A stretch of DNA of 64,000 nt. Origin: Astrocystis sublimbata (lineage: Eukaryota > Ascomycota > Sordariomycetes > Xylariales > Xylariaceae). This document shows positions 2,645-60,000 of this stretch, one piece after another. Each line of letters opens with the position of its first letter. Position 1 is the first letter of the stretch. The notes beneath the pieces were generated by a model. It did no database searches. It was given only the letters and a program-made list of their open reading frames with translations, and was not told where the DNA came from. The translations under genes were made by a program, and so were the position numbers. Location: positions 1 through 64,000 of the forward strand of contig JAJNNY010000050.1 of NCBI GenBank assembly GCA_022453515.1, in the 5' to 3' direction.

Positions 2645-3163
2645 TTACCGTCTAATACATGTTTCCCATACTGCAATAATGCACTGGAGGGAGTACTTGG
2701 GATGTATCCGCCACCCGTGGAACCTGGCCATCATTGATTGGCGTCAAGGTTGGCTTCCGGCAAGCCACTCATGTCTGTAACATATGATTCATGCGAAAGC
2801 GACGTACCATGTCGGTAGCCGAGCCAATGAAGAACAAATTATTATTGCATACAAAAGTGCATCATGCGAAAGAGACATCCCACACATGTTTAGTACCCCT
2901 CTCTGCCCATTTAACAGCGTTTGGGTCAAACAACGGATATTATTCTTTGCCTGGCACACATTATTGGTGCTGGGCCCATCGGAATCGAATAGGAATTCAG
3001 CAGTATAAGTTTTGATAGAGTAACTGATATGAGTAGGTGATATCATTTTTACCTTGGCGTCCATACGACGAATGAAACCTAACCTCCGCTATAAAGAAGA
3101 CCGTAAAGACACCATAGCCTCAGGAATTCACATAACAGCCAACAAAATCATCAGAACTCCAGC
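2645..3163. other. intergenic promoter region of the fusion gene
   Basis: No gene is seen. It ends in an A/C-rich leader just before the ATG at 3164 and holds a TATA-like element, listed separately. Confidence 0.5.
3090..3096 (+). promoter_or_regulatory. TATA-like box of the fusion gene
   Basis: The sequence TATAAAG lies 68 bp upstream of the ATG at 3164, a plausible spacing for a fungal core promoter. No experimental start site is implied. Confidence 0.35.
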
Positions 3164-10353: not shown

Positions 10354-12310
10354 TTGGTCAATATGTTCTACCTCTACATCTTGTCTACCTTTGCCATCCT
10401 CCTTTCTCTCGAGGCTCTTGTATCATGTCAAGTCGCCAAACACCGGTCTACTCCTCCACACGTGGGACTGAGGAGTTCCAACAGGAGATCACAAATAAAC
10501 CGCGAAGAGCACAAGACCATAGATTGTCGTTGCATCCCAGGCGATTCTTGTTGGCCCGCTCAGTCCAAATGGAGGGCATTGAATGAGACATTACAAGGAC
10601 GGCTTATCGCCACTGTTCCTATCGCTCAGGTGTGCCACGCACCTCATTACGACCAAGAGGCCTGCAGCACCTTGCAAGCAACGTGGAGTGACCCTCAGAC
10701 GCAGTGAGTCAATCTCCCCTCCCTACAATCTCTACCAGGACTCACTTTTGATGATGACGAGCAGTATCTTTTCTCCTGGAGATTTTGTGGCGCCTTACTT
10801 CCAGAATCAAACGTGCGATCCTTACACGCCAACAGACAAGCCATGCACGTTGGGGAACTACCCGCCTTACTCGATCAACGTGACTACTGCAGCCGATGTG
10901 ATTGCTGGGTTGCGTTTCGCACAGAAGCATAATGTCCGCTTGGTCATCAAGAACACGGGTCAGGAGTATGTTTCCCTCCCATTTTCTCTGTGATTGCTCT
11001 TCGCTGATGTCGCGGCCCTCGCGAGCTACAGCTTTTTGGGCAAGTCATCGGGGAAGGGGGCTCTCGAGCTCTGGATGGCGAACGTTAAATCGTCATCTTT
11101 CATGCCACATTATCGTAGCAGCTCTTATTCAGGGCCGGCCTTTAAGCTCGGCGCGGGTCTCGTCAACAGTGAGGCCGCGCTGCTTGCGCGTCAGCATAAT
11201 GTGCGGCTCGTGGGCGGCTCTAGCCCGACTGTGGGCGTCGCTGGTGGATTCACGTCTGGTGGAGGTCACTCTCCCCTGTCTGGCCATTACGGTCTCGCTG
11301 CGGACAGTGTGCTTGAATGGGAAGTTGTCACGCCGAATGGCGAACATGTAGTAGCGGCGCCCCATGGCAAGCATGCCGACTTCTACTGGGCCATGACAGG
11401 TGGAGGAGGGGGCACGTGGGGTGTTGTCCTATCGATGACGGCGAAAGTGTATCCAGACGGCAAAGTCGGGGGCGCGTCACTGACAGTGTCATCGAAAGGG
11501 CTGGCGCCGGATACGTACTGGGGGACAGTCACCGCATTCCACCGTTTCATCCCGACATTCGCAAACTACGGTACAGTCGCCACGAGCCTGCTCAACGGCG
11601 ACGGTCTCACCATGTTCGCAGCCACGTCTCCGGACGCCACCGCTGATGAAGTGAGGAGTCAGCTGTCATCGTTCGTGGGCTACCTCGACATTCACAACAT
11701 AACCTACAGCGTCAATTACACCGAATTCGGCAACTACTATGACCACTTGATGTACTACCTCGGCCCATACCCGTTCGGATCGTTCCCCGTCACGCAGCTG
11801 ACGGGCGGACAACTCGTCTCGCGGGCCGTGTTGCAGTCGCAAAAGGAAACGACAGACCTCGTGAGAGCCGTGCGCTCGGCCATCGCCAACGGAGACTTCT
11901 ACGTGACCATGGAATCGTTCGACTTGAACGCGACGACGACGGCGCGTGCCGCATACCGCGAGGGACAGAACTCGGCCAAGGCTGCGTGGCGCGAAAGCGC
12001 GCTGTACTACATCGTCATCAGTCCGTGGGACTGGACTATCCCGCGCGAGGAGATGGTGGCGCGCCAGGAGAGACTGACGAACACTATCCTGCCGGCACTA
12101 GCGGCTGCGGCCCCGGGGACGGGGGCATACCTCAACGAGGGCAACTTTGCCGACCCAAACTGGCAGCAGTCGTTCTACGCCGAGAACTACCCGCGCCTCG
12201 CCGCGATAAAAGAGAAGGTTGATCCCCGAGGATTACTGTATGCGCGTACGGCTGTGGGTAGCGAAGCTTGGCGGGAAGATACAAGTGGAAGACTGTGCTT
12301 TGTGGGCTGA
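10354..12310 (+). CDS. Secreted berberine-bridge-type FAD oxidase lacking both flavin anchors
   Basis: VAO/BBE-family flavin oxidase, likely an oxidative tailoring enzyme in the secretory pathway. Exons 10354-10703, 10765-10965, 11026-12310; introns 61 and 60 bp; 611 residues (608 if Met at 10363 is used). The N-terminus is a signal peptide (MFYLYILSTFAILLSLEALV). The FAD domain contains NTGQDYSFLGKSSGKGAL near 180 and SSPTVGVAGGFTSGGGHSPL near 248. The C-terminal BBE motif is NWQQSFYAENYPRLAAIKEK, followed by KVDPRGLLYA. Two positions are unusual. The histidine of the family's N-T-G-H-D-Y motif is Gln, and the cysteine of C-P-T-V-G is Ser. Both covalent flavin links known in bicovalent BBEs are therefore absent. 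FAD may bind non-covalently, with a lower redox potential (inference). Confidence 0.92.
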
Positions 12311-28373: not shown

Positions 28374-29164
28374 TCTGATAGATGGTTTTCCAGAATATGC
28401 TCAAATGGCTTCTAAGTCACTGCTTCGCTTTAGAGGAATGAAAATAATGGCAAAGAAACTCCTGAAAAGCTCTGCGTGGAACGACACTCTGAACAAGCTA
28501 CCGAATCTAGAAGAACATAGGGCTCAAGGCATGATAGCACTTAATTGTCATACAGTATGCGTGTATTTCTGGGGAATATCATGCATAGCAAGACATGCTC
28601 GCCCAATGGTCGCAGTGCAACATAAGCTTCTATCTATTGATCTGACTTTGTGCTTATTTTGAATCCCATGTGCCGCCCGCTTATCGCTGACTGCAGCACT
28701 CGGCATACGGGAGAGCCTGATGCTAGCTGCGCCGCACCGACTTTTCAGAGACGATCTGCATAGTACGCTCTTTGGAAAATTGGGAGACGAATGCAGCCAG
28801 TCCGATGTAACCACCCAAAGCAAATCATCTCGCTCTCTCATCAGCCGAGCAGACTGGAGACACAAATAACAAGGTTGGAGCATTTGTTAGAATAAGACGT
28901 GACCCCATCTTACTCTCTTTATGCAGCAAGCTTCTCGAACAAGGGTAGCGAATCAGCCCGACAATAGACCCTGGACAGTAGGCTCTGCACTGCGAATTGA
29001 AGCCTCAAGTCTATTAATGACACGTCACTCTTCTTTTGCAGTGGAGATAGAACACGGGCAAGTCCATTATCGTCTATGCTGGTCGAGCTACAAACGAGCA
29101 AATTGTGTGAAGACTGTATCATCATCTGCGACTGAGACTACATCGTCTTCCTAATTGTTACAAT
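28374..29164. promoter_or_regulatory. bidirectional promoter region, hydrolase and PKS
   Basis: The only sequence between two start codons facing away from each other (28373 minus, 29165 plus), so it must contain both promoters. I could not identify a binding site for the bANK regulator by eye. Confidence 0.6.
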
Positions 29165-32100
29165 ATGAAGCCCAGCCACTCTGTCAACGGCGCCAACCGG
29201 CTCGACGGCGTATCAGAACCCCCGGGAAATCAGCCAAAGCCCACACAATACCTTCAAGAGCCCATTGCTGTCGTGGGCATGGGATGTCGCCTCCCCGGAG
29301 ATAGCAACTCCCCCCACGCGCTGTGGCAGTTTCTCGAAAGGGGAGGAATCGCGGACAACCAGCCGCCAGAAACCCGATTTCAGCTCGACACACATTACGA
29401 TGGCTCCAAGAAGCCCTACACAATGAGGTCCCCGGGCGGCATGTTCCTCGAGTCCATCGACCCCCAGAAGTTCGACGCCGCCTTCTGTGGGATCGGCAGG
29501 GTAGATGCCGTGGCCATGGACCCGCAGCAGAGGCAACTCCTCGAAGTCGTCTACGAGTGCCTCGAGAACTCGGGTATCCCGTTGGAGGCCCTCGACGGGA
29601 AGAACGTGGGGTGTTTCATCGGGTCTTATGCTGTCGACTACGCCGACATGCAGGCGAGAGACCCGGATGACAGAGTGCCGTCTGTCACGATCGGCATTGG
29701 CCGAGCAATCCTCAGCAACCGTATCAGTCACTTTTTGAACATTCACGGACCCAGCATGACGATCGACACTGCTTGCTCCGGGAGTCTCGTAGGACTCGAC
29801 GTGGCATGCAGATATCTAACCACAGGCGAGATCGATGGAGCAATTATCGGCGGCGCCAACCTCTATCTTAGTCCCGAGCACGTCATGGATGCGGGACCGA
29901 TGAAGGGGGCTTCGTCTCTCTCTGGTCGGTGCCATACTTTTGACAAGAAGGCGGACGGCTACATCAAAGCAGAGGGCATCAACTGCGTCATGCTAAAGCG
30001 TCTACGTGATGCCGAGAGAGATGGTGATCCTATTCGAGCCATCATAAGAGGCACCGCTACCAACAGTGATGGCAGGACACCTGGTATAGCCAGTCCGAGT
30101 GCTCGAGCTCAGGCCGCAGTCACTCTGTCAGCCTACTCTAATGCCGGTATCACGGACTTATCGACGACGGCTTATATAGAGGTATACGAACATGTTTCTG
30201 GTTATTTCGTTTATGTTTATTGTCAAGCTGACATGTAGCTAGATGCACGGGACGGGCACGCAGGCCGGTGACCCGGAAGAAGTCCGAGGCGCCGCATCCG
30301 TCTTCTCCCCCACGCGCCCACAATCCTCCCCTCTCGTCATAGGCTCCATCAAGAGCAACATCGGCCACTCGGAGCCTGCTGCCGGCATATCCGGTCTCAT
30401 CAAGGCCGTCCTATCCGTGGAAAACGGTCGCATACCCGGGAACCCGACCTTTGTCGACCCGAATCCCTCCATCGACTTCGAGGGCGCCAGAGTCCGTGCG
30501 ACGCGCTGGACGATTCCCTGGCCGGCTGGTCACGAGTTGCGGCGCGCCAGCGTCAACAGTTTTGGTTATGGCGGGTCCAATGCTCATTGCATCGTAGACG
30601 AAGTGCCCGTCGAGCGACGAAACTTCAAGTCGTGCTTCAGCAGCAATATCGCTGACGATTTCCTCGCGGACGCGGACGCGGTCGAGATCTCACGGCCGCA
30701 CGTCATTGTTTTGTCGGCAAATGATGAAGCGTCACTAAAAGCTTACTCTGAATCTCTCCGCAAACATCTGCTTAACCCAAAGGTGAATGCCAGTCTGGAC
30801 AGTCTGGCCTACACTCTCTCGGAGAGGCGGAGTCACCACTTTCACAGAGGATACATGGTATTGAAAAACACATCCTTTAGCCCGGATTCTCTGACGTTAG
30901 GCAAAAAGAAGACAGAATACCCAAGATCGGCTTCATCTTCACGGGTCAGGGGAGCCAATGGTCGCGCATGGGGCACAGCCTACTCGAGAACTTCCCCGTC
31001 GCTCTCGAGACCATCAAGCGCCTCGACGTATTCCTCCGGGATTTCAAGCATCCGCCTGCGTGGTCTCTCCTAGAAGAGCTGACGGCGGCTAGAGACGCTG
31101 CGATGCTTCGAGAGCCCGAGTACTCACAGCCGCTCGTGACGGCGCTTCAGATCGCCATCGTTAACTTACTAAACTCATGGGATGTGAGTGCCGGGTCTGT
31201 GCTCGGCCATTCCTCGGGCGAGATCGCCGCTGCATATGCGGCCGGCTTACTGTCTGAGAAAGAGGCACTGCAGGCAGCCTACTACAGGGGCTACGCTGCA
31301 AAGACCAGTCGCCGCTCACGTTGCTGCGACATGGGAATGCTGGCTGTCGGCCTGAACAGCAAGAGGGCACAGGCCTATGTGGACGAAGCAGCCGAGTCGT
31401 CACATTCAGACTCCGGGGCCGTTTCTATCGCGTGCTATAATAGTCCGGAAAGTGTTACGCTCTCTGGACCGAAGAGCTCGCTTGAAGCTGTGCGGGTGAA
31501 GATCCTTGCTGATGGGCACTTTTCGCGCATGCTTCAAGTCGACATGGCGTATCATTCATCGCTCATGCACGATGTCGGAGAATCTTACGCCCAGTTTCTG
31601 GAGGAGGAACATTTTGCTCCCAGCACGGTTAAGACACCAAAGGTCAAGATGTTTTCTTCGGTAGACGGCGAATGGACTCGCAAGGCTATGGACATTGCCT
31701 ATTGGCAAAGCAACATGGTCCAACCAGTTCTTTTTGGTCAGGTCCTTACCCAAATGCTGACAGGCAAAGACTCGCCCGACTTTCTGATTGAGATCGGACC
31801 CAGCGGCACATTGGCCGGCCCCGTTGCTCAGGTCAAGAAGGAATTACCCGGTGGCGGATCTAATATCCAGTATTGCTCGGCAATGACGCGTGGACAGGGA
31901 GCGGAAGACGCCATCTTCGACACTGCCGGGAAGCTGTTCGTGGCAGGTTATCGCGTAAACATGGCAGAGGTCAACGGCGTCGCAGCTCATCATGCGACCC
32001 CCAAGATCCTCACCGACCTTCCGAATTACTGCTGGAATCGCGAGAGAGATTACTGGTACGAGAACGAAGCCAGCCGTGATTGGCGCTATAGACGATTTCC

Positions 32101-35100
32101 GCACCATGATCTCCTCGGCTCCAAGATTCTGGGCACGCCGTGGGCCGCGCCGGCCTGGAAGAAGACGCTCGCCGTCGAAGACCTGCCTTGGCTCGGGGAT
32201 CACCGTCTTGGGCCTGATATTGTGTTCCCTGGCGCTGGATACATGTGCATGGCGGTCGAGGCGATGAGGCAGACGGACAGTGCGTTGCGTCAACAGATAG
32301 GAGAAGACGTCGAGATGAGGCAACAAACACGCCTGCGCAATGTCACGTTTGACAAAGCTCTAGTCCTCGAGGAGGGCAAAGGCACGCGCATCATGTTGAA
32401 CATGGCACCTCTCGCCAACCAGCAGGGCGGTTGGTACTCCTGGGTCATCAGATCCCTAGTCCTGGGGTCTTGGATCGACCATTGCAAAGGCCAGGTCCGC
32501 ATGGAGAACGACGGGAAGGCGATCGGCTCGTCCTCCGAAATGGCCACTCTTAAATATGCGACGCCGGGTGCGGCCTGGTACAAGTCCATGTTCGACGTCG
32601 GCTACAGATTCGGCAAGTCTTTTCAAAAGCTGCAGCTCGTCGAGACAGTCTCTGGGTCTAGGTCCTGCCGATCTCATGTCGACCTCGTCCCCCCCTCTTC
32701 TCAATATGCTCAGTCCAAATACCCCATGCATCCGGCCGTGCTTGATGGATGCATGCAATCGTGTGCGCCTGCGCTTTGGAACGGCATCAAGAGCAGTGTC
32801 AATGCGGTACTTGTTCCTGCCGTAATCGACGATGTCCTTGTCAAGACGCCATGGGGTAATCTGGAAAGAGGCATTTCTGTCTCGCAATCCTCATTCGCTG
32901 GTCCAGGTCGTGAGGAAGAGACCAAGAACTACGCGTCACACGCCAAGATCTATGACTCCGTGACTGGAGAGCTTGTTTTGGCCCTTTCTGGATTGAGGTA
33001 TCACAAACTGGACTTCCAGGACTCGGCATACGCAGCCCATCGCTACAGCCGACTAGAATGGGGGCCGGACCTGACACTGAGTCCCCAGGCTTGTCGTCGC
33101 GTCCAAGGTTATGGCGATGGGGAGGCAGTCCAGCACATCCTCGATCTCGTAGCCTTCAAGAAGCCAAACGCCCGCGTGCTGGAGGTGCTTCTGGCTCCAG
33201 GAGAAACTTCCAGCATGTGGCTCGAGGGCCTCGGCTCGGCTTCAAAGCCTCGAAAGTCGTACAGCAGCCTCGTGGTCATGACTGACGATGCTACGGCCCT
33301 CGTCACAGCTCAGGCAAGGTACGGAGCCATGCCAAGAACGGCGTTTAGCCTGCTAGCAACCGCGGAGTTGTTCGGTTCAGGGGTCGAGGAGCCACAACAG
33401 AATCAATTTGACTTCATCCTCCTAAGGCTGGGTGGTCATGGCAAGCGCCGCTGCGGGGACATCATCCCGTCTGCCAGGAAGATCCTCGGCGAGTCGGGCC
33501 TGTTCATGGTTTTTGAGCAAGAAAATGTCTGCTCCAATGGGCCCAGTGTAGATCCTCAATCCGCTCCACTTGTCAACGGCAGCGGACCTGGTGTTGAGGA
33601 GATGCTCGACGAAAGTGGGTTTGAGGTTACCAAAGCTTCCGACGAGAGACCTTTTTGGCTTGCGCGTCCTTCCACCCCGAATTCTCATGAAAACCCCATT
33701 CCTCTCGACATCATACATCTTAGTTCGCCGGGAAGAATATGCCACAGCATCTCAGCAGCACTCAAAAGCTTTGGCTGGGATGTCCGAGAGATGATGGTCT
33801 CGACATTCGAGCAGCAATTGCGAGCCGACGCAACCTGTCTTGTCATCACAGAACTTGAGGCCCCTCAATTGCCCACATTGACTGCTGAGTTGTGGACGGC
33901 TATCCAGAAGTTACTGCAAAAACAGAACAAGATCTTGTGGCTTAGCGAAGCGTCCCAGTGGAAGGTCCGGAACCCCGACGGTGCCATGATTCACGGCCTG
34001 TGTCGTAGCATCAGAACCGAGGATCCGTTCATGAGCATCATCACTCTTGATGTCGAGGACGCCGAGAGTATCGACACAATGCTCCGGCGGCTTCAACAGG
34101 AGACACCGAGCGTTGGCGGATTTGACGGCGAGTATGTCGAGCGCGGAGGCATATTCCACGTAAGCCGTATTCTCGGTGATGACGCCGTCAATGCCATGGA
34201 TGCTGCCAAGGCAACCGGACCTCCGCCTGTCAACATGAGCCTTCACGAGGCGTCCACTACCATCCGTATGGTTGCAGAGCGTCCGGGGTCCATTGACTCG
34301 CTGCATTTCCATGAGATTGATTCCGCCGAGCTACTACTCCCAGAGAATAAGGTGGAAGTGGAACTGTTTGCCTCTGCTCTGAACTTCAAGGATATTGCCG
34401 TGACGATGGGTATCGTCCCGGAAAACCACCATCTACTGGGTCTAGAAGGCGCCGGCACCATCCGTCGAGTAGGTGAGAAATTGCATTCGCATTTCCATGT
34501 TGGTCAGCGCGTTCTAGTGTTCGAAAAGGGCGCCTTTGCCAATAGGATCATCGCCACAACGGAGAGGACCATAGCCATTCCAGACTGGCTCAGCTTCGAG
34601 GACGCAGCGACGCTCCCGTCCGTCTACCTCACGGCTCTGTACAGCCTGCAAGATCTAGCTGCGGTGAAAGCGGGAGACCGCGTGCTCATCCATTCCGCCA
34701 CCGGAGGTCTGGGCATAGCATCCATCCAGATCTGCCAGTCCGTCGGCGCCGAGATCTTCGCGACGGTCGGTCAAGACGACAAGAAGCAGTTTCTCATGGA
34801 TCACTACGGCATACCCGCGGACCACGTCTTCAGCTCGCGAGATCGAGACTTTGCAGAGGGCATCATGAGTCACACGCACGGCTACGGCGTCGACATCATC
34901 CTAAACTCGCTCACCGGAGACTTGCTCGACGCCTCGTGGCGATGTATCGCCGAGGGCGGCACCATGGTCGAGCTGGGAAAGAAGGACTTCATCGACAGAA
35001 ACTCCCTTTCCATGGAGCCGTTTTCTCGGAACGCTTCGTATCGGTGCTTTGATATGTCGCATAAGCACGTCACGGATGAAGTGATACAATCGTACGTGTG

Positions 35101-36504
35101 CATCTGATCGATAATTACGTCTGAGATTTCTCTACTTGGCTGAGCTCAAACTGACATACTTGCATCTATAGGTTGATGCGACGCATGATGGACCTGATCA
35201 TATCGGGCCAAGTCAAGCCCATATCTCCCGTGACGCTTTTCCCGTACCACGATATTCCCGCCGCCATGCGCTTCATGCGCAGCGCCAACCACATTGGAAA
35301 AATCATCATTTCCAACAAAGAGTGCGCAGAACCTGTTTCTACCGTCGCGGTCCGCCCCGCTCCTCGAACTCTGAAGCTTCGCGAGGACGTGTCTTACATG
35401 ATTGTCGGCGGTCTTCGGGGCCTATGCGGCTCGCTTGCTCTCGACATGGCCCGTCATGGGGCACGCAGTCTCGTCGTCTTGTCTCGCAGCGGGACCAACG
35501 ACTCAAAATCTCAAGCCGTGCTCAAAGATCTCGAAGCGCATGGTTGTCACACGGAATCTGTCTGCGGCGACGTGGCAGACCTTGACGATGTCCACCGGGC
35601 TTTCAAAAGCGCTGCCATGCCAGTAGCTGGAGTGATCCAGGGCGCCATGGTGCTCCGCGACAGGCCTTTTGAGTTGATGACCCACGACGACTACACCACA
35701 GCCACGCGGCCAAAAGTAGCAGGGACCTGGAACTTGCACAATACTGCGATCCAACTCGGTCTCACGCTCGACTTTTTCACCATGTTGTCGTCGATCTCGG
35801 GGCTCATAGGTCAGCCAACGCAGGCCAACTACGCGGCGGCAAACGTCTTTCTCGACAGCTTCGCCTACTACCGCCGCGGGCTCGGGCTCAAGGCGAACTC
35901 GGTCGACCTGGGCGCCATCGACGACATCGGATACATGGCCGAGCACTCGAACCTCATAGAGGCGCTCGACACATCGGCATGGACGCCGATAAACGAGGCC
36001 CTGTTCCAGACGATTGTGCAGTATTCCCTCATGCAGCAGGAGCCCATACCGCTCAACCCGGACTCGTCTTCTCAGTTGATAACATCGATAGCCATCCCTC
36101 AACCGCCATCCTCGCGCTTGATCTCCGACGCTCGCTTCGCCTCGTTGCTTTCTGGAAGTTCGGCAGGCACGGAGATGATAGCGCCCGACGCCACGGACGC
36201 AGACCGAGGAATCCAGGCGCTGCACCTCGCCATCAAGAGCGGGGCCGACATGTCCGCTGTCCTGCCCAAGGCTCTGGAGCTGGTCAACAAACAGTTCATG
36301 GTAACCCTAAGAGTCGAGGATCCGCTCGAGCCGGGAAAGCCGCTGTCGGCGTACGGGCTCGACTCGCTTGCCGCTGTCGAGTTTAGGAACTGGTCACGGG
36401 CGCGGCTGGGGGCTGAGCTGACTACTCTAGAGATCACGGGCGCGCAGAGCCTGATGAGTCTAGCGGAGAAGATTGTCTCCAAGATACAAGTTGGGGGAAA
36501 GTGA
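29165..36504 (+). CDS. Highly reducing iterative type I polyketide synthase (KS-AT-DH-(MT)-ER-KR-ACP)
   Basis: Builds a reduced polyketide from malonyl-CoA. Exons 29165-30181, 30243-35091, 35172-36504; introns 61 and 80 bp; about 2400 residues if the frame is continuous. KS has active-site [14 protein letters not shown] and [14 protein letters not shown] has the serine elbow LGHSSGE (about 31200). DH has [18 protein letters not shown] (about 32190) and the late [10 protein letters not shown]. The methyltransferase region (about 33120-33560) is short, and its SAM motif has decayed to LEVLLAPGE, so C-methylation is probably lost. ER has [14 protein letters not shown] (about 34690). KR has [13 protein letters not shown] and [13 protein letters not shown] has the phosphopantetheine serine in [10 protein letters not shown] (about 36360). 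There is no thioesterase. The frame shifts by one base in the KS-AT linker near 30903-30912, with intact domains on both sides. Confidence 0.93.
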
Positions 36505-48862: not shown

Positions 48863-50181
48863 ATGTTGTTCTCCAAGATATCTGCCGCCACCGCCCTCGC
48901 CGTGCTGGCTGGCAGCACCACTGCTGCAGGCATTAAACGCCAGAGTGGACCGGTTGACCCCAGCACGGATCCCGACTGCACGTATTACGACACAGCGTAC
49001 GACGAGACCAACGACTGTTCCTACTTTGAGGACTGGTGGGGAATCTCTCATCAAGACCTCGTCTCTTGGGTAAACTTTTCTCTCTTCGCCCCAACGTCAC
49101 ACTCACGAGATACGAAGCTAACGACGTGCCTAAGAACCCTTCTCTGAAAAATGATTGTAGCGGCCTCAAAGTAGGCAATTCTTACTGTGTCGAGGTCACT
49201 CGCAAACCGACCAGCACCTCAAGCACAACAACCCCAACGGCTTCTCCCAAGCCGTCACCCACTCAAGACGGCCTCATTGACTCATGCACGACCTTCTACA
49301 AGGCGCCCGCGCGTGAAACGTGTGACAACATCGTTGCTACATACGGCACTTTTACCAAGGCCGAGTTCATCAAATGGAACCCGGCTGTTGGTGACGACTG
49401 CGGAGGCATCTGGGCTGATACGTATTATTGTGTTGGCATCCCTGGCACGCCCACCTCAAAGCCTCCAACAGCGACACCAACGGGCCCTCCCAAGCCATCG
49501 CCTACGCAGGAGGGTCTTATAGACACCTGCACAACCTTCTACAAGGCGCCCGCGCGTGAAACCTGCGACAACATCGTCAAGAAATATGGCACTTTCACTA
49601 AGGCCGAATTCATTAAATGGAACCCGGCTGTTGGCAACGACTGCGGGGGCATCTGGGCCGACACCTATTATTGCGTCGGCATCCCTGGCACGCCCACTAG
49701 TAAGCCTCCAACAACGACACCAACAGGTTCGCCCAAGCCATCGCCCACACAGGAAGGTCTCATCTCGACCTGCACCAAGTTCTACAAGGCTGTCGAGGGG
49801 GACGAATGTGACAAGCTTATCGCTAGATACGGCACATTCACCAAGGCCGAATTCCTGAAGTGGAATCCGGCAGTGGGCAGCGACTGCAAGGGCCTGTGGG
49901 CCGACACGTATTACTGCGTTGGCATTCCCGGTACACCCACTAAACCTACCACGACGAAGCAGCCCACGCCGACGGGCTGCACCAGGGCCCATCCTACGCC
50001 GACGCAGCCGGGCTCGCTCTGCGCCTGCACCAAATGGTACCTGCCCGGCAAGAACGAGTTCTGCGCTGATATCGAGAAGAAATTCGGCATCACGGCGGCT
50101 CAGTTCAATAAGTGGAATCCGAATGTTGGATCCGACTGTAAGGGCCTGTGGGCTGATCACAACATCTGCGTCAAGGCTTGA
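48863..50181 (+). CDS. Secreted protein with five LysM domains (LysM effector type)
   Basis: Exons 48863-49069 and 49135-50181; one 65-bp intron; 417 residues. A signal peptide (MLFSKISAATALAVLAGST) is followed by a KR that may be a Kex2 site. Five LysM modules follow, separated by Thr/Ser/Pro-rich linkers. Each has the pattern C...(F/I)xKWNP...DCxGL/I..YCV: the first is split by the intron at SW|NPSLKNDCSGL, then two nearly identical ones (FYKAPARETCDNIV...KWNPAVG), a fourth (FYKAVEGDECDKLI) and a fifth (WYLPGKNEFCADIE). Modules two and three differ at only a few residues, so their duplication is recent. LysM effectors bind chitin, shield hyphae or hide chitin fragments from host receptors; which applies here is unknown. 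Confidence 0.93.
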
Positions 50182-51035
50182 TTGATGAGGATGATGGTGG
50201 CGAGTATGTTGGGCCAAGCCGGGTGCAATCGAAAGAGGCGATGAAGAGGAGGTAGCCTCCCATGTTACTTCCACTATCACAGCTTAGTACCTATATTACT
50301 AGATTACTCATTAAAACGTGATTGAATATAGATTTTTTTTTCCTATTACACTCTCTTTTGGACAGAGAGTGCCGCTATATAGACATCTGGCCCAGGTGTG
50401 ACTTCCAAGGCTGACACCCTCGCCCTGTCGCAATCCTGCTTTAGCAGCATTGTCCATTAGAGCAAACTTTGACTCATCACACCCAATTTCCCGTTCAACC
50501 ATGCTGACCATACTGACAGCTCACCATGAATGCACTCCCGGTAAATGCAACGACTCTCGTGACGTGAGCAGTGACAGTTTTGCTGTCGACCTGAACGCGC
50601 TGCTACCACTTGTGATAGGAGCTCTTTACGCATCATATTTTCTCGCTGCTGGTCTTCTCCTCTGACGTCGCCTTTTCGGGTCCATTCATCGTTTCTCAGA
50701 TGATCAATAGATCATGGACCGCGGCCGTCTGATGTGGGGTCCACGGAAGCGCTGGGAGCCATTGGGCGATATTAACATCTTCGCCTGCACGTATAATGTA
50801 CTTTTGCTCTTCTAGTCGTTCCAGCCACCTGAACTGTCGCCAACTCGGAGTTCTTCAACTGGAGTGTTGTGGTGTGGTGTTCAGTGTCGTGTGGTACTGG
50901 CTCCGCGCAAGCCACTATAGCAAAGGACCTATTGAGGAGGTTTGGTAGTCTATTAGATCGGATGATGTTACAAGGCTCAAAGATCGAATTAAATTAGTGG
51001 AGTGTCTAGTATTGGAGACATGCACCGGAAGCTCT
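50182..51035. other. intergenic between convergent genes
   Basis: 3' flanks of the five-LysM gene and the membrane glycoprotein gene. Short open frames only; nothing recognised. Confidence 0.5.
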
Positions 51036-51979
51036 TCAGTGCGACGCTGGCAACTCAGATACCTGAGGGTAGGTCTTCGGTTGCTCCATTTCATGTGGCC
51101 TGTCCAAGCCATTCAGCTCTGAAGGGTGGTTGGGTTGGTCATAATACTGAGTTGGCACGGCCCCTCCGTATGGCTTCTCCGAAAGCGGCTGGCTTTCCGG
51201 CATCGCGCTCTTCGTTTTCCGTCGCCAGAAGAACCACGCGGCAGCCCCGATGAGGAGAAGACCTACAACGACGGGAACAACTATCGCAGCAATCGGAGTG
51301 TTGCTCTTCTTCACAGCTGGCTTGTTTACCGTTGTGTCGCTGCTTTTCTGGGGCGAATGTGTCGTTGTTGTAGATCGTGGGTGTGATGGTGTGGTTGACG
51401 TGGATGTTGATGTTGTGGATATCGAAGTCGAAGAGGTTGTTGTCGCTAGCTGCCTGTAGACCGTATATGCTTTCCACCCAATGCGGCAGCCATAATTCGT
51501 TGCCGATGGCCAGCCGTCCGGCGAGGACTGGAGGATTGTGAACTCAACACACGACGCTCCGTTGTTGCTGCAGCTCATTGATTAGTATCATCATCACATC
51601 ACGTCAGTCCGATCAAGATCCTCGCACCATGTTGCTGCGCTGCCATCATCGTAGTACAGTGTGTTATCAGAACACCCAGTCGCGTACACGCAGGTAGAGG
51701 CAGTTGTCGCGCAGTCCCCTGCGAAGCGCCCAGATGTTTGCCATCCCTGGCCGGCGGTCAGGCGCTCGGCTTGTTCGATCCGTCAGCTTCAGTCGCTTGC
51801 GATACTTTTGAAATGCCTCAAGCATCTTCTTGTATGTCTGACTTACTTGATGTTGGCGCCAAGTAGTATCCGATGAAGTGCGGATCTTCGCTATCAGGCA
51901 CAGCTGTTGTTGTTGGCATAGATGCCTGCGCCTGGCAAAGTCCCAGCAGTATTATCCAACTCGCGAAAGTGGCGATCAT
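51036..51979 (-). CDS. Single-pass membrane glycoprotein with Cys-rich ectodomain and Ser/Thr stalk
   Basis: Exons (minus): 51979-51847, 51769-51628, 51567-51036; introns 77 and 60 bp; 268 residues. A signal peptide (MIATFASWIILLGLCQAQA) starts the protein. The ectodomain contains WQTSGRFAGDC, CVYATGCSDNTLYYDDGSA and CNNNGASC. A long Ser/Thr-rich stretch of about 45 residues is probably O-mannosylated. One transmembrane helix (IAAIVVPVVVGLLLIGAAAW) precedes an Arg-rich stop-transfer and a proline-rich cytosolic tail of about 65 residues. The layout resembles fungal wall-stress sensors or related Mid2/WSC-type proteins, but no WSC signature is evident. Function is unknown. Splice phases all agree, so the gene model is good. 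Confidence 0.8.
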
Positions 51980-53143
51980 CTTGTGATAGTCTATGCCGTC
52001 CTCTTCGTATATACACTCGCAAGAAAGTGACGTGACACAACGAACCCTGCAAGGAACTTTGCGGTTTTGTGCGATCGACAACTTTCTATGTCCGAGTGGC
52101 AACTGAATGATGATCTCCCGGGCCTGAGGATTTCAGCAGGAGCTGAGAGCTGAAGGGCGGTGCGCGCATCACCTATAGTACTTAGCTCAGACGCTTATTC
52201 GATCCCACGAGAATCACTGGGGCGCACGCAGTCTAGACCTTGCTGTCAGCCGAGGTGGAGCGAAAAATAGGCGAGACGGTCTTCAGTGTCTCCCAACACC
52301 ACTAAGCTCGAATACTGGGATAAAGTCTCATCTATTTTTCACATCACCTCTCAGCTTGAGGGCCTAGCAAGCTAGTTGAGGCTTATCAACTTGCCTTAAT
52401 CTACGACCGGTCTTGGCACCTATCATTGGTGCAATAGTAGACTAATATTGCCAATGGCCCCAATCACGAATTGCGTTATTTTTGGCGTCAGGTTAAAAGC
52501 ACTAGTTCGAGAAACGGCTTCAATTGCGTTGAGATGAGGGCTTTCACCCTGCAAATCCTAATTTCGAAGATTCAACTTTTCGTTTCCAACGCCCGCAATA
52601 ACAATGTCTGGTAATCTGTGTTCGCCCGATTGCTTGAGAATGGATGATTGATCATCATCATGATATGTGGGATTGATGGCCCTTGTGCACGGATACTGCC
52701 GCTTGCCCCATCCTAGGCTAATACATGTAAGCCCTAGCATCGAAGGATTGTTCATAGGCGAAGATCCGAAAGTGCAAACCTTGTTGATCTGCTATAGGAA
52801 TAGTCCATTTCTGATGGGCCTCAAGTTGACACGCATCAATATGTCCTAGGAAGAATGTGGGGGAATCTGTACGACCTTAATTATGATTCGTCAGCCAGAT
52901 GTTGGCAGTGTTGCCTAGATCTGAAACCTTTCGTGGCTATTACAGCTACTCTCAGTTTGAACTGTGGAACTTCTGTAGTAATAAGAGTTACCAAGTTTTA
53001 TCCTCACATCTCATGTCTACACTCTATTATGAGTTTCATTTCATGTCTCTTAACTGTGCTGGCTTTATAGTTTATACTGATAATTGGGCAGATATCGAAT
53101 CAAACAGTAAAACACTTTAATAATCAAAGTCCCAACCCCTGTT
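51980..53143. other. intergenic, no gene
   Basis: About 1.16 kb between the membrane glycoprotein start and the UstYa stop. Weakly coding short frames only; nothing recognised. Confidence 0.5.
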
Positions 53144-54225
53144 TTAATCATGGCTATGATCGCCCAAGCTTTTATTGTCAATATTGTGAGTGCGCTGCCA
53201 ATCCACAAGCCTGTCCCAGCGTCGACACTTATGGTGGACGTTGAAGTCGGCCTTGGCACCCAGGGGATTGCTGTCATCTTCAATGATGAACAGCGGCGTC
53301 ATGTCGGCATTGCACATCAGCTGAAGTCGCAACGTCTCGATGCAGTGATCGACGTGCATGCGATCCCCAACAGAGGCGTTGTTGGAGACTTCCAGGTCGA
53401 CGAGCCGATGGTTATGTCCTTTATTGAGCCATTCGCTGAGGTTCTCATCATAGTAGTCTCGCCATGTGAATTGTCGGATGAGGTTCTAGGTAAGATGTTA
53501 GGCTAGTAACAAGTGGTCTGCGTAGATGGTTATGTATGATGTGATATAGATGGAAAAAATGTCGCTTGTCTAGCTCACCAAGCAGTGCACCTGATGAAAC
53601 GCCTCCAACATGGCGCTGTATCCTCGGCTCTTGTCCTTGTCGATGTGAAGAAGATTATCCGATCCTTTCCCGAGTCTAGCAGGTCCATCAAGCGGCACCT
53701 CTATACCGCCAACTGTTTCGTATATGTGTTAGCTTTCATGTTCTTGAGTGACTTGATGATCATTAGAAGGGCGTCTCCATACAATTCCAAAGCTGATCCC
53801 ACGCCTCCTCTAACTCGGGAGTTGGTGGTCCTCTAAACTTCGACTTGTGGGCGAACTCGTTCTCGAAGTTAAGGTCATAATACTCAACAACGCCGTCCTC
53901 GATGGGAGGTGCTGCACTTGTCATCAGCATTACACTACTTGGATGAGGGCTTAATCTGATACTGACAATAGGGATTGAGGAGCCGCGTGCATGAGAACTC
54001 ATTTGGCCCCCTGAGGATGGTATACAGAAGCAGTCCGCTACTGACAAGTGCTATGACCCATGGGAGGATGTGGAACAAGTGATAATTCAGTTTGGGCTTA
54101 GTTTTTTCATAGCTCATCAGCCCGAGGTCGTCTTTTCCATCAACTAAGCGTTGGTCTTCTTCACCAGACTCGTCAGATCTTCGAGAGATGAGAGATGAGT
54201 ACTTGAAATTTTTAACAAATGCCAT
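53144..54225 (-). CDS. UstYa-family (DUF3328) RiPP oxidase/cyclase
   Basis: UstYa-type proteins carry out oxidative macrocyclisation of ribosomal peptides in ustiloxin-like (dikaritin) pathways. Exons (minus): 54225-53967, 53911-53783, 53712-53579, 53485-53144; introns 55, 70 and 93 bp; 287 residues. The cytosolic N-terminus is followed by one membrane helix (ILPWVIALVSSGLLLYTIL), then the lumenal domain. Both diagnostic H-x-x-H-C motifs are present: FHQVHCLNLIRQ, built across an intron near 53579/53485, and MHVDHCIETLRLQLMCNADM near 53360-53301. The family's last motif WDRLVDWQ is also seen. It is divergent from the repeat-bearing precursor at 55416, the expected partner. Only one UstYa is visible; many such clusters have two, and the second could lie outside the window or be absent. 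Confidence 0.92.
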
Positions 54226-55415
54226 GGCAGAGGTAGTAGAGCTCAGAGACTTGGGAAGGGACAAAGAGGGCAGGTCGACTCGTGGGCGATGAGCAATACT
54301 ACTATGCAGTATGGGAGTCTTGTTGGTTGCTCGGAGTTAGAAGAGTCCATCGGCAGATCTTGTTGAGAACCCCTCAAATCACTTAGTTATTTGCGAAACT
54401 TCGGCTTTCGCGACGAACAACTATCCGACACATAAATCCCTCAGTCCGATGGTTCGAAAACTTCGTCAGTGGCTTGATTGCCCTGGCCTCCCATGAAGGC
54501 TAGACCGCTTGTTGCCCTTGCTGGTATGAAGAATCAAGAATCCGGACGGTCTCAGACTTCAAAGCAAAACAGGATAGATCGGACGGGATGCAGGACCACA
54601 ACTCAACCTCACTGGTTGGAAAGTGATCATTTCGTGCTTTCGATATGTGTGAAGCTGTATGTCTGACCAAGTACATATGCGGAGAGAGCAAGCACGATTT
54701 CGCAGAAAGCTCGCAGAATGTATCCAAATGAGGAAGTTCCCTACTATGTGGCGTAATTTGGTGTTTCCCCCTCTCACTTTCATGCTGTTTCCCCTCATGT
54801 GGGAAACAACGTGTAGTTAGATACTATCGTCAGCAAACCAATCACAAAACAACCCTCTTGTAACTAACATCGTCAATGGAACGTCCGTATTGCCACTAGC
54901 ACTATAATGGCTTCCTTGGGGAGCACTCTGCATATCAATGCATGATGTCTTGCGCAATTGAGTGTTATCTTTAGGTGTTGTCGGTCAAGGCATAAAGTTA
55001 ATAGTTTCTATGCAGTCAGCGATCTGCTAGGAAAATTGCCGAATACGTGAGAATCTGACTATATTCTTACAATTCTATCCTACCATAGCGCATTGTCGCT
55101 GAATACTGTCGTCGCGCAGTCATGGTTGTACAGCATAATTAGTTTGTATAATAATAACGAAACCAATGAAGAACCTTCCGTGTGCAGAAGGGTGTAATTG
55201 TATTCGTGCGGGGTGGAACTGTAGCCAATAGATCAAACACAGCAAGCCAATACGCCGTATTCATGAATATCATCCAATGTATTGAACTAAAATCGTTTAT
55301 ATTGAATTGGACTGTCTATCAAACTTCGAAGATAATTTCCACAGACGCACATACACTCACATAAACACACAAACCTACAGTCAAGCATTCCTCGAAAGCC
55401 CCCCGATTGATTATC
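54226..55415. promoter_or_regulatory. bidirectional promoter region, UstYa and precursor
   Basis: Spacer between divergent start codons (54225 minus, 55416 plus). It is A/T-rich with no recognisable gene and probably carries both promoters. Confidence 0.5.
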
Positions 55416-55991
55416 ATGCCTTCAATGTTCAAGCCCACGACACTTGTGCTAGCCTTGGCCGTCGCGGCTATGGGGGTGCCTCTCGTTACCCGAGACACTG
55501 AAGCAGGTAACTACAGATAACTATAGTTCGCGCCATAGCTATTGTGTTACATTTGGTATAGACTTAAACAAAAGCTAATCATTTTATTATGCGCAGCCGA
55601 CCACGAGTCCATCAACGTGGTTTTCAAAACCAGTGGGGCGTATGATGAAGACATCAATGCTGCGGACGCGAAGGAAGTACTCGGGAAACGCGAATCCGTC
55701 AACGTGGTTTTTAAAACTAGCGGGGCCTACGATGAGGATATCAATACTGCGGATGCCAAGGAAGTCCTTGGGAAACGCGAATCCGTCAATGTGGTTTTCA
55801 AAACCAGCGGGGCGTACGATGAGGACATCAATGCTGCGGACGCGAAGGAAGTCCTCGGGAAACGCAACCCCAACATCAAAAAGCGACAGCCCTTCGTGTA
55901 TGTCGCGCATGATGGTGATGATGCATATCAAGCAGACTTCGCAGCCGCCGACGCGGCCGAGGTGCTCGGAACAGCTGAGGGAAAGGCTTAG
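55416..55991 (+). CDS. Kexin-processed RiPP precursor with tandem repeats (dikaritin-like)
   Basis: Exons 55416-55506 and 55597-55991; one 90-bp intron; 161 residues. The first exon is a signal peptide (MPSMFKPTTLVLALAVAAMG), ending in VPLVTRDTEA at the intron. The second holds three 29-residue units (55605-55691, 55692-55778, 55779-55865). Each starts E-S-V/I-N-V-V-F-K-T-S-G-A-Y-D-E-D and ends AKEVLGKR. The Lys-Arg is a Kex2 cleavage site. A fourth, divergent unit follows a KKR: it has QPFVYVAHDGDDAYQ and the same ADAAEVLG end. Signal peptide, tandem near-identical units, dibasic sites and a neighbouring UstYa define precursors such as UstA, GigA and PhomA. The aromatic Phe and Tyr in each unit are candidate cross-link sites (inference). 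No known product with this unit comes to mind. Confidence 0.9.
55605..55865 (+). repeat. 87-bp tandem coding repeat, three copies
   Basis: Three head-to-tail 87-bp units inside the precursor gene. They differ mainly at synonymous positions and by two residue changes (Val/Ile at unit position 3, Ala/Thr at position 19). This suggests selection on the peptide rather than very recent duplication. Confidence 0.95.
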
Positions 55992-57240
55992 GTGGCTTTG
56001 GGTAGACTCTTATGGTCCGGATGAACTGGCCATACATAATGTTCGGGGGAAAGTCCATATTTATTCTGTCACTCGTTCGTACAACTCTAGTCTACGCCGG
56101 AAGCACAAGGACGATGTTGTTCGTATCTGCAATGTTGTCTATAAACCTTGATCGCCAGAATTAGTGGAATCACTGTTTGTCGATGGGTCATGGTCATACA
56201 AACAAACTGGGGTTGATCACAATATGAGTCAGCCATCTTTTTTCCGGTTGCTGAATGAGACATAGATATTTCATTAGTGGCTTGCGCTAATTGAATCATA
56301 CACTCTCTGCTGAGTCTTCTGATCCGACCGATGAGCTATGTCGACAGGATGTGGCAGAGACAAAGGAAACACAAGTTAATCTTCTTGGTCTGTAGAACCA
56401 CACTTCAAGCCAAATCGCCAAGATGTGAGGCAAGATACGATACCTTATGCCGGGCGAAGCTGTATGTTTCACTTCTTTCGAGAGACTATATCTCAACTTC
56501 GTGTAGGAAAGCCGTGGCTTCGCACCAAGCGCCGGTCTCTCATCGTGTGGCGTAATTCTCTGTGCCTTCATTCCCTCACCTACCTAGGCAATCTCACAAG
56601 TGCGCGCCATCACTATCAACGTATCGGTGACATCATAGATGGTCTCTTCAATGAAGCCATCAACGCTTTTCCCGGTCATCAGTTCCAGACTATTACCACG
56701 AGCAGAGAAATGGCTTCCTCATGGCGCCTTTTGCGTGATCTGCCAAAGCCGCTTGATGAGTGCGTACTCGTCCTCACCGGCTGAGATCCCCATACCTCGG
56801 AGTTACCATTACGCACTACCATCCCCCAGCATTGACGAGAGTATGACGATATCTTCTGGTCTATTGATGGCTTGTTCTTCTCTGGCAAGCCTCCTCTGAG
56901 ACACCAATCGCAGAGTATTGCCATGGGCAACAGATGGAAGCGTGGGTGGCGGATCTGTGTGGTGGTTCTCCTCACGACACACACGAGGATGTGAAGATGC
57001 CATTGCAAATGTTCGATATTGGCAACTGTGCTAGCCAAGGCTACATGGAAAGAGGTCATTGGTATGGGAGATATCCTCAGCAAATGTTGCCTATAATAAG
57101 CTGAGCGAGCCCGTGGCCGAAAGCATGAGCATTACAACTGTCGACAAACTCATCTCGGGACAAATCTAATCACCCAGCACACACACACGCTCATCAGGAA
57201 TCAAACTGCCCTCCGCAAAGACCAATTTTCATTCGCCAAA
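55992..57240. other. intergenic between the two precursor genes
   Basis: No intact gene is seen. On the minus strand between about 57000 and 56650 there is a decayed stretch that may derive from a HET-type protein (listed separately). Confidence 0.45.
56650..57000 (-). pseudogene. Possible decayed HET-domain-type gene fragment
   Basis: In one minus-strand frame the words REEQAINRPEDIVILSSMLG and, after stops, EYALIKRLWQITQKAP followed by a G/S-rich turn recall the C-terminal part of fungal heterokaryon-incompatibility-like proteins, which have a threonine/arginine-rich 'PED' segment and a later W...P...F segment. Stops interrupt the frame. The resemblance is from memory and weak. Confidence 0.2.
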
Positions 57241-57603
57241 ATGCCTTCCCTCCTCAAATGCACGAGTGCCATGCTCGCCTTGGCTGCCGCCCCGGCTATG
57301 AGCGTGCCCCTGGGTAACCGGAACACCGAAGCAGGTAATCCGGACATAAACCAAGCCATGGCTAAGGCAAACAAGCTGACTACCTCATCATCTGCAACAG
57401 TCGCCTCGGCCATCGAAGTGCTCGAGAAGCGCCAACTGCTGGGCGACCTAGAATCCGGCCTGTTTCCCGATCCCAACGATCCCGACGGCTTGCTCTCAGG
57501 CCTCAACGAAATCCCGCGGAAGCGGCAAACGCTAGACGACCTGCTCACCGATGGTCTCGACGGGGTGTTCCAAATCGTCGGGCGACGCGAACCCGTTGTC
57601 TAG
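57241..57603 (+). CDS. Second RiPP-precursor paralogue, shortened by an in-frame stop
   Basis: The first exon (57241-57334; signal peptide, then VPLGNRNTEA) is clearly homologous to that of the precursor at 55416. The intron donor follows the same T-E-A codons in the same phase. The intron (57335-57400) is 66 bp and frame-neutral. The mature part has dibasic sites EKR, RKR and GRR, releasing segments that begin QLLGDLES and QTLDDLLTDGLDGVF. It lacks full copies of the 29-residue unit before the TAG at 57601-57603. It is 98 residues spliced or 120 unspliced. Directly after the stop, in the same frame to a TGA at 57685-57687, comes VAYDEDMAAADAGEVLGTR, a recognisable relative of the unit in the first precursor. 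The gene has therefore either lost its repeat end or ends in an exon I could not define. Confidence 0.7.
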   Translation: MPSLLKCTSAMLALAAAPAMSVPLGNRNTEAGNPDINQAMAKANKLTTSSSATVASAIEVLEKRQLLGDLESGLFPDPNDPDGLLSGLNEIPRKRQTLDDLLTDGLDGVFQIVGRREPVV

Positions 57604-57687
57604 GTGGTTAGAAGCCGCGTGGCGTATGACGAGGACATGGCAGCTGCGGACGCGGGCGAGGTCCTGGGTACGAGGCCTGATTTCTGA
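57604..57687 (+). pseudogene. Relict precursor unit behind the stop codon
   Basis: An in-frame continuation after the TAG. It keeps A-Y-D-E-D, A-A-D-A and E-V-L-G of the active precursor units, but the terminal Lys-Arg is Thr-Arg. It could be translated only by read-through or alternative splicing (a CTAG acceptor directly precedes it); otherwise it is a relict. Confidence 0.6.
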
Positions 57688-60000
57688 TGGGCTTGGGTGG
57701 CTCGAGAGGGATGGCAAGGCAAACAAACACCTGCCTACTCAATGCAATACTTGTTGTAGATGCACTATGCAACTTACCTCGGGTATTGGGGCGTCATCCG
57801 ATGTTGGGTGGAATAGGAGAAGGGGAGATGGTTGTCGCTTGGCGTCGTGTTTCGGGTCTGCAACGAAGCTTTTCCTACCTTTCTTTTTTTTCTTTTTTGG
57901 GTCACTTGCATGTTCGGGTCTTGTTCCTGCGACATGCGGATTGGTGGAATTCGTGTCTATGGTCGGGGGGATCGACTTGCCAGGGAGTAATGAACTAATA
58001 GTCGGGTGGGTTGCTGGATTAGATACAGGTAGGCATGCTCTGCTCGCTACTACATGGCAAGTATGTACGAGGCGGCGATGCCAAGGTAATTGGCAGTTTC
58101 CAAAGGAAGAACGGCCGAATAACACTCATTTGGTCCCAGATACATAGTACCTGCCTCCCTCGCCTCCAAGGTTGCCTTGGTGTTGATGATGTTCACACTT
58201 AGTCCTGAATGGGTGCAGGAGCATGGCGTCGCGTGGACGTCCATCTAGACTTTGGAGGGCCAGAAGCGAGAGATAGCAATTGGCTGTGATTCGCGGCGTA
58301 TTTTGGTTAGCGGCATGTGCCCGTACCCATACAGAATCCAGAAGGGCGAAGTCAGCTGGCTCGGGTTGGCAGGTGGTAGGGTGAGCTCATGTACAATGAC
58401 GTATTGACTCAGGGTTTGAGCCACATGGTGTAGAACCCATATTCAGGGCCACCGAGGGCCACATTTCGCCTAGCCCCTAGCCGAGAGCACAGCTGAGCCA
58501 CTCGACTTGGGCTGCACCTTAACTCGAGTGGAAGGAACATGACTCCAGCCAGCCATGCCAGCCTCTTCGGCGATTATTAATACGGTACACGGATATACGA
58601 GTATCCGATATAGGCCGGGAATCGACAAGGAGCCGCACCGTGCGCTGCGCTAGAGCTCAGCACGGGAGAAGGACCCTGAGCATCTCTTGTTGATCTTTGT
58701 CAGTCCTCGTTCCTGAGAGGCTGGCTCGGCCTCAACACCACTTTAAAAAGTGTAGATACGAACATTCACATGATTGCCCTTTCCAACCCACTCGAGCCAC
58801 TCAGAAATTCCGACATCTCATGTTTAGGCAAGACTTACCTAACGGGGCATATGGGCATATGGACATGTCGGCAGGAATTTGTGCATCGTCGCCAGGTCTA
58901 GCGTGCCATTAGCCGTGCTGCTATTGGGCGTGGGCTGCTTTCCAAGCTGGTACTGCCGCGAGCCGAGCTGGTCTCGCAGGCCGAGGGCCCTTCCAGAACC
59001 TCGCCAACCCCTGTCGGTAGCACCACTGTCGTAGGCGAACGAGAAGTACTTGCGGGACTGGCTATCTGGCACCTATCAGCGTTGTACATGGCGGTGTCGG
59101 TGGACCCTGACGTGCCTGAGACACAGTAAGACACGGTGCAGTGTGCAGCAGCGATCGTCATAGTGCCATCTTAGTGCCACCACTTCTAGCCCAGTCAGGC
59201 AGTAGCGGGTCGGTCAGGCCAGGTCTGCTTGGAGCAGCCGCGGCCGGGCACAGTGTGCCGTACAGTATGCGTGCTGCTGCGTGTACTATGTAATTTGTGT
59301 ACCTGGTAAATCTACCTGGTCGACTTTCCCGTCCGGTCTGATCTTTCGCATCCCATCCACATCCCATCCACGCACCCACGCCCGTCCCAACCAGCGCTGC
59401 CCCAAGCATCCCCCGAGCATCCCCAAGTCCACCAATCCACACGTCCCATCTGCGCGCGATTCGGATTCGCTGGACCGACCGCCGACAGCACGGGCGACGA
59501 GACCCTTCATCAACTGCCCCCATCCACGGTACCGCGCTCCATCATTCCACCCTGAGCCTCATCTCGCACTCGACTCATCTCATCTCCCATGCGCTGCGCG
59601 CTTGCAGGCCATCCATCGTAGCCATCATCCCATCCATGAGCCTGTCGTCGAAAGAGTAGCGCACCTCGTCTTCGTCTAGGTGCCCATCCATGTCTCTGTC
59701 CGCGTCTGTGTCTGTGTACCCGAACAAGACGCCGCCGCCCACCCCCCCAACATGGTCCGACACACTCGCACACGCACCACGACTACTGTTCCTCTCTTCT
59801 CCCTCTAGTCCTTGTCCTCATCCGACCACGCGCCGAAGAGCCTGTGCCACCCTCCCCTGTCCAGCCGCCCGGTCGCTGACACCGAAGCGACGACGACCTC
59901 CATCCCAGCCTCTGCACTCGGTAGCCAATCCCCACGCCCCATCCGAGCAGGAGACACACCTCACCTTCCACATTACACACACCCTCGACACACATCCATC
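57688..60000. other. intergenic and 5' leader of the splicing factor
   Basis: No gene is seen to about 59150. From about 59300 to 60000 the plus strand is C/T-rich, as in leaders of strongly expressed fungal genes. An open frame continues upstream of the chosen ATG, but its composition is not protein-like. Confidence 0.45.

Follow-up and report, generated by a model that had tools for sequence, protein, structure and literature searches.

The window, that is the whole stretch of 64,000 nucleotides of Astrocystis sublimbata (Xylariaceae, Xylariales) DNA analysed here, contains a compact gene pair that probably constitutes a dikaritin-like KEP/RiPP locus: UstYa-dependent, with a Kex2-processed repeat precursor that belongs to a sequence family of the Xylariales. 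The class itself, a UstYa-dependent peptide made from a Kex2 repeat precursor, is well supported at the sequence level, since the parts are present and apparently recur in other Xylariales.

The first constituent is a UstYa-family (DUF3328/PF11807) oxidase gene (positions 53144 to 54225, minus strand), which encodes a protein of 287 aa in four exons (54225-53967, 53911-53783, 53712-53579, and 53485-53144, as spliced in our analysis). The spliced protein matches PF11807 with an E-value of 2.1e-47 and contains the motifs HQVHC (residues 169-173) and HVDHC (residues 218-222), bearing out the preliminary description, which had named a UstYa-family oxidase with both H-x-x-H-C motifs. The public Astrocystis sublimbata model F4808DRAFT_463272 is 100% identical to it over the whole length, and the splicing is therefore independently supported. 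In an AlphaFold2 model (53 sequences, mean pLDDT 78) the protein has an N-terminal helix at residues 49-72, probably a membrane anchor, and the two HxxHC motifs sit in helices 166-181 and 213-233. Searches for structural relatives gave no PDB sequence at E ≤ 1 and no Foldseek match at E ≤ 0.001. The 1.19 kb between the two divergent start codons (54226 to 55415) could act as a shared promoter for the oxidase and the precursor gene; Rfam has no match within 51000-59500.

The second constituent is the precursor gene on the plus strand, whose start codon is 1.19 kb from that of the oxidase gene and which encodes 161 aa in two exons. Exon 1 (55416 to 55506) codes for a hydrophobic N-terminus that resembles the N-termini of the relatives described below and looks like a signal peptide, as judged by eye. 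It is followed by a 90-bp intron with GT..AG borders (55507 to 55596), where read-through reaches an in-frame TAA, and by exon 2 (55597 to 55991), which consists of units 1-3, a linker NPNIKKR, and a divergent unit 4 with the tail AYQADFAAADAAEVLG. Units 1-3 are arranged head to tail as three 87-bp units (55605 to 55865), recovered by Tandem Repeats Finder as one array (score 419, 86% matches). Each comprises 29 aa and ends in GKR, a Kex2-type site at which cleavage is predicted. Of 940 stop-to-stop segments scanned for repeats across the window, six passed the threshold: the precursor frame at 12/12 with four unit pairs, an alternative frame of that DNA (10, one pair), and four further segments (6, one pair each). 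The putatively secreted precursor divergent from UstYa, with three 29-residue units ending in Lys-Arg, is thus confirmed by its coordinates, by the tandem array, and by the scan. The fourth divergent unit that had also been described is indeed present and diverged, but it lacks a Lys-Arg end: it comes after KKR and extends to the C-terminus. Two distinct peptides from a single precursor gene are possible, one from units 1-3 and a related one from unit 4. For units trimmed of KR, the calculated monoisotopic masses without modification are 2870.3821 Da (unit 2), 2840.3715 Da (unit 3), and 3482.5902 Da (unit 4 up to the C-terminus); each cross-link would lower the mass by 2.0157 Da. Pfam matches on the precursor (DUF6482, DUF285, Ntox46, and DUF6150) all fall below the cut-offs and are taken as chance.

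The differences between units 1-3 are almost all synonymous. The three unit pairs differ at 14, 7, and 9 bases versus 2, 1, and 1 residues; as few residue changes arose in 0, 2, and 0 of 5000 trials per pair under uniform random substitution, and in 0, 11, and 0 of 5000 trials under transition-biased substitution. Such a bias is characteristic of a translated frame under selection, and the likeness among the three units could also stem from exchange between them.

Relatives of the precursor were sought among ~5.8 billion proteins, a step the preliminary description had proposed. In these searches the ~8000 candidates with the most words in common were scored, at 0.55 to 1.75 times the query length. 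The precursor alone gave four matches at E ≤ 1, from Xylaria and Nemania. A profile of these four and the precursor gave 18 matches at E ≤ 10 (the first four included; weakest E-values 0.67 and 1.5), which span 67 to 254 aa within the stated size limits and several of which are fragments on short contigs. Annotated fungal proteins of other Xylariales (Xylaria, Nemania, and unplaced Xylariales) account for eight of the 18, and the other ten have the same kind of tail. A public model of the Astrocystis precursor itself was not returned, although one of very different length could be missed by such a search. We note that three distant precursors (P0068, P0070, and P0071, with E-values of 2.2e-4, 0.67, and 1.5) have tails like AYQDxVDAVxxPAxVLG, a hint from sequence that the tail family is wider than the Xylariales. 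In two further relatives, P0059 and P0060, tail units alternate with a second acidic, Leu/Gly-rich segment bounded by dibasic sites, and a gene of this type may give two peptide types.

Five of the eight annotated relatives share species and an equal-sized contig with a UstYa match, where same-contig status is deduced from the species name and contig size. Two of these pairs have consecutive locus tags (P0001/P0019, EKO27_g9904/g9905; P0061/P0014, ANO14919_134290/134280) and a third has close ones (P0004/P0025, F5Y14DRAFT_400930/400928); the remaining precursor/UstYa pairs are P0062/P0009 and P0063/P0020. For the other three annotated relatives (P0002, P0003, and P0058) the match list holds no UstYa partner; in the case of P0003, from Xylaria palmicola, the UstYa match of the species is on a contig of different size. 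The linkage bears directly on the possibility that the precursor is an ordinary Kex2 repeat protein which yields linear signalling or surface peptides, while the adjoining UstYa acts on something else. According to the main text of PMC7329392, 1758 of 7878 KEPs (22%) have a DUF3328 gene nearby, so that the pairing is common, and 6120 of the 7878 lack one. The Astrocystis genome has 34 UstYa matches, ~20 loci by grouping, and chance neighbours are hence possible; the three annotated relatives without a linked UstYa in the match list point the same way. We nevertheless regard linear peptides as improbable, as five other Xylariales apparently have the same linkage and no repeat-precursor frame was found at four other UstYa loci scanned (of ~19; 7 to 10 kb each, with a scan that is blind to single-unit or much diverged precursors). 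That the scan misses diverged precursors is evident from the second precursor gene at 57241, described below, which it does not flag. The preliminary description had read the UstYa gene and the repeat precursor as the defining pair of dikaritin-type RiPPs, and this reading gains support from the related genomes, through the recurrent apparent linkage and through the clade formed by the UstYa proteins.

Among 474 candidates, 53 UstYa relatives were found at E ≤ 0.001. In a tree of 53 rows, the five UstYa proteins labelled as linked and the Astrocystis protein fall into a single clade of 19 members (support 99/92), of which the latter is the first branch in the midpoint-rooted drawing. The sister clade (18 members) contains P0033, a further close UstYa from Astrocystis sublimbata, and no labelled row. 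That it holds no linked member depends on the choice of labels, because two UstYa matches of Xylariaceae sp. AK1471 share the size of the precursor's contig (1.29 Mb): P0020, which falls in the 19-member clade and was labelled as linked, and P0038, which falls in the sister clade and was left unlabelled. A shuffle test of the labels, with 13 clade members unlabelled, found nothing unusual (5 changes versus a shuffled mean of 5.8; 79 of 500 shuffles as low). The first HxxHC motif is absent from the public models of two proteins labelled as linked, P0019 and P0020, which probably reflects gene-model error.

The relatives also reveal which part of the unit is conserved. Ends of the [VI]LG type occur 55 times in the 19 precursor proteins (Astrocystis and the 18 relatives), and seven of them do not end a tail unit (three in P0059, two in P0060, two in P0064); among these seven is the leader end of P0059, which reads EVLGKR without a Tyr. 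All 48 tail units contain a Tyr and, four residues later, I, V, or F (one unit assigned by eye), a conservation that is partly ascertainment for the whole tail, Tyr included, since the words on which the searches relied include the tail. Counted back from the motif end, the Tyr stands at residue 15 or 16 in 47 units and at residue 18 in one unit of P0069; the residue at +4 is V in 24, I in 22, and F in one of 47 units, and I by eye in the P0069 unit. The pattern can be written as [A/P/S]Y-x3-[I/V/F]...VLG-KR, with mostly E at +2 after the Tyr. For 39 units in the 15-residue register (34 distinct, effective number 12.5; three units of P0068, two of P0070, three of P0071, and one of P0069, 9 of the 48, are left out), entropy is 0-1.8 bits in the tail versus 2.4-3.4 bits at the nine positions before A-Y. 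The F-K-T-S-G part of the Astrocystis unit is hypervariable and its Phe is not conserved among the homologues. A cross-link between F and Y as the conserved core was consequently rejected, and the core region from F to Y named in the preliminary description is not supported; what the homologues keep is the Tyr together with an I, V, or F four residues further on.

Conservation of this kind can be understood in more than one way. The tail might be a recognition (follower) sequence only, in which case the product would be the variable front half and UstYa would oxidise another residue, for example by hydroxylation, or form a bond within the variable part. The front half does differ between species and between the units of some genes, like RiPP cores, next to a conserved tail, and cyclochlorotine clusters are reported to contain UstYa homologues that carry out hydroxylation or chlorination (text of PMC12048977). 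We consider a pure follower unlikely, given that the Tyr and its +4 partner are kept in every tail unit and that many front halves, for example those of the LPIGLIESLIGG type, have no aromatic residue. For the UstYa-dependent locus that we prefer, the precursor would enter the secretory pathway, where the membrane-anchored UstYa would recognise the tail [A/P/S]Y-x3-[I/V/F]-x-A-A-x-P-x-E-V-L-G. UstYa might then oxidise the conserved tail Tyr, our best guess being a side-chain bond from Tyr to Ile/Val (i, i+4), a cross-link spacing that none of the UstYa products in the text of PMC7329392 and PMC9233826 shows. Kex2 would cleave after KR, a carboxypeptidase would then remove the basic residues, and more peptidases may shorten the peptide. 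The variable first half of the unit would be either kept as a species-specific part of the product or removed. A bolder version, which we put forward tentatively and with some doubt, is a modular RiPP in which one oxidase lineage reads the fixed tail (Y-x3-[I/V]...VLG-KR) and fungi attach freely changing front segments to it. If this holds, a small Tyr-Ile/Val (i, i+4) ring would stay constant, and the peptide joined to it would vary from species to species and from one unit to the next.

Another precursor gene, diverged from the first and absent from the preliminary description (57241 to 57603, plus strand), lies 1.25 kb downstream on the same strand. Its leader is related, matching that of the first gene at 19 positions; it also has two acidic, Leu-rich segments that are bounded by dibasic sites and lack the conserved tail, and it ends at a TAG (57601-57603). 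Past this stop, in the same frame and apparently untranslated, follows a tail-like sequence (AYDED...EVLG, 57604 to 57687, plus strand), in which the residue at +4 after the Tyr is M. The precursor matches the region twice, at 57241-57444 (E = 0.0023, 41% identity) and at 57571-57675 (E = 0.0013, 54% identity, one TAG inside). A splice donor is located at the same place in the leader as in the first gene and would define a possible 66-bp intron (57335-57400), whose use is uncertain because this intron is in frame and free of stops. From its sequence, the second gene looks like a duplicate that lost its tail unit. Its acidic Leu-rich segments may be related to the spacer segments of P0059 and P0060, a lead found by eye only. 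The stop ahead of the tail unit also raises the question of whether the locus as a whole is decaying, with one precursor gene already broken and the pathway losing function, and it might be added that the protein search returned no public precursor model. Such decay is very improbable in our view, as both the UstYa gene and units 1-3 of the first precursor gene are intact, the latter with a marked excess of synonymous differences.

The tail appears confined to this locus in the Astrocystis genome. Protein queries against the genome matched it at the precursor locus only, and the distant relative P0071 as a query gave nothing significant (best E = 2.3). The codon pattern for AYDED has 13 exact matches genome-wide, four of them at the locus (three in the precursor, one past the stop of the second gene); none of six inspected among the nine elsewhere carries the tail, for a pattern that covers exact AYDED only.

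The locus has one oxidase gene, and a whole-genome search for tyrosinase (PF00264) gave 29 matches, none on the contig that carries the locus (C136). Methyltransferase, transporter, and peptidase domains had no match in the 27 unspliced ORFs tested (of 161 listed with at least 100 aa), and within the same 27 ORFs the neighbouring genes show no sign of belonging to the pathway. Beside the pair are a LysM-like gene (below cut-off), a GH18 chitinase region, and a gene for an RNA-binding protein; a polyketide synthase is located further off. The polyketide synthase region (29111-36504, plus strand) comprises acyltransferase, dehydratase, and zinc-dehydrogenase (enoylreductase-like) domains in the tested part (30881-35104), and upstream of it are a berberine-bridge-type FAD oxidase (10994-12307) and a P450 (12598-13557). 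Near the chitinase region, a 243-bp tandem repeat of 2.9 copies (49225-49940, plus strand) lies in an open frame with a LysM match below cut-off. A frame of 1178 aa (3107-6640, plus strand) has FAD-binding, phosphomevalonate-kinase, and phosphoribosyltransferase domains in a row, an odd fusion that adjoins a GTP cyclohydrolase I gene (1780-2644). Elsewhere in the genome, contig C141 has a tyrosinase match (189692-190433) ~2 kb from UstYa matches at 192183-192332 and 194690-194911; this set (189692-194911) is the gene company of ustiloxin/phomopsin clusters.

Published surveys provide the frame for comparison. The ust-RiPS KEPs (Umemura 2020, PMC7329392) share with our locus the dibasic-bounded repeats, the adjoining UstYa gene, and a Tyr in the repeat. 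As reported in the main text of that work, Tyr occurs in 65.6% of KEP repeats near DUF3328 genes versus 38.2% in others, and pheromone KEPs almost never have DUF3328 neighbours; a pheromone precursor was set aside as a less probable reading. The same text does not contain 'xylari', 'AYDED', or 'EVLG', and its Table 2, restricted to the top types, lists neither Nemania nor Astrocystis. The precursor family may still coincide with a published KEP type (838 in all), such as G-6 with its Hypoxylon and Monosporascus members, because our comparison covers the main text and the top types of Table 2. The KEP motifs of Le Marquer 2019 (PMC6339444) are likewise conserved Kex2-released peptides, some with Tyr, and the new motifs given in that text (DADAATXYV[A/V]D, YVW[G/A][G/S], SPPHKT, QKLKVD, and XSDW) differ from the unit here. 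The running text of the literature examined yielded no description of the precursor unit, and the sequence family is apparently new. A survey of Hypoxylaceae and Xylaria hypoxylon notes that its RiPPs could be detected only through similarity to precursors already characterised (text of PMC8403587), and free-living Xylaria are reported with at least one RiPP sequence, termite-associated Pseudoxylaria with none (text of PMC10119272). Counts of Xylariales RiPPs made from known cores may be too low, because no public precursor model was returned by our search.

In epichloecyclins, derived from GigA, a Tyr is linked to the N-terminal Ile in a nonapeptide, from which the unit found here appears to differ. 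Imperfect repeats and several products are common to GigA and the Astrocystis precursor, and the Tyr of GigA is internal to the core (text of PMC9233826). Victorin, grouped with the dikaritins in the same text, has a multi-core precursor that is likely Kex2-processed; it differs in its cross-link between a C-terminal Phe and an internal Leu and in its chlorination. The older five-gene definition of dikaritins includes a tyrosinase, along with a methyltransferase and a transporter or peptidase; later definitions do without the tyrosinase (text of PMC12048977). As in dikaritins, the precursor here has a leader and repeated core/recognition motifs. Ustiloxins and phomopsins share with it the UstYa oxidases, the repeat precursor, and a Tyr with a branched residue nearby; their core is Y-x-I-x with a Tyr-Ile link (text of PMC7329392), in contrast to A-Y-x3-[I/V/F] here. 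A core of the ustiloxin/phomopsin type was accordingly rejected, the conserved spacing being +4 throughout the tail units. Asperipin-2a, like the present locus, combines one DUF3328 protein with one precursor (text of PMC7329392), yet it has two rings, closed by two links that start from the side chains of internal Tyr residues (text of PMC9233826), versus one conserved Tyr per unit here; as the precursor family combines a fixed tail with many fronts, the Astrocystis locus offers a compact pair of one oxidase and one precursor for studying the site choice of UstYa.
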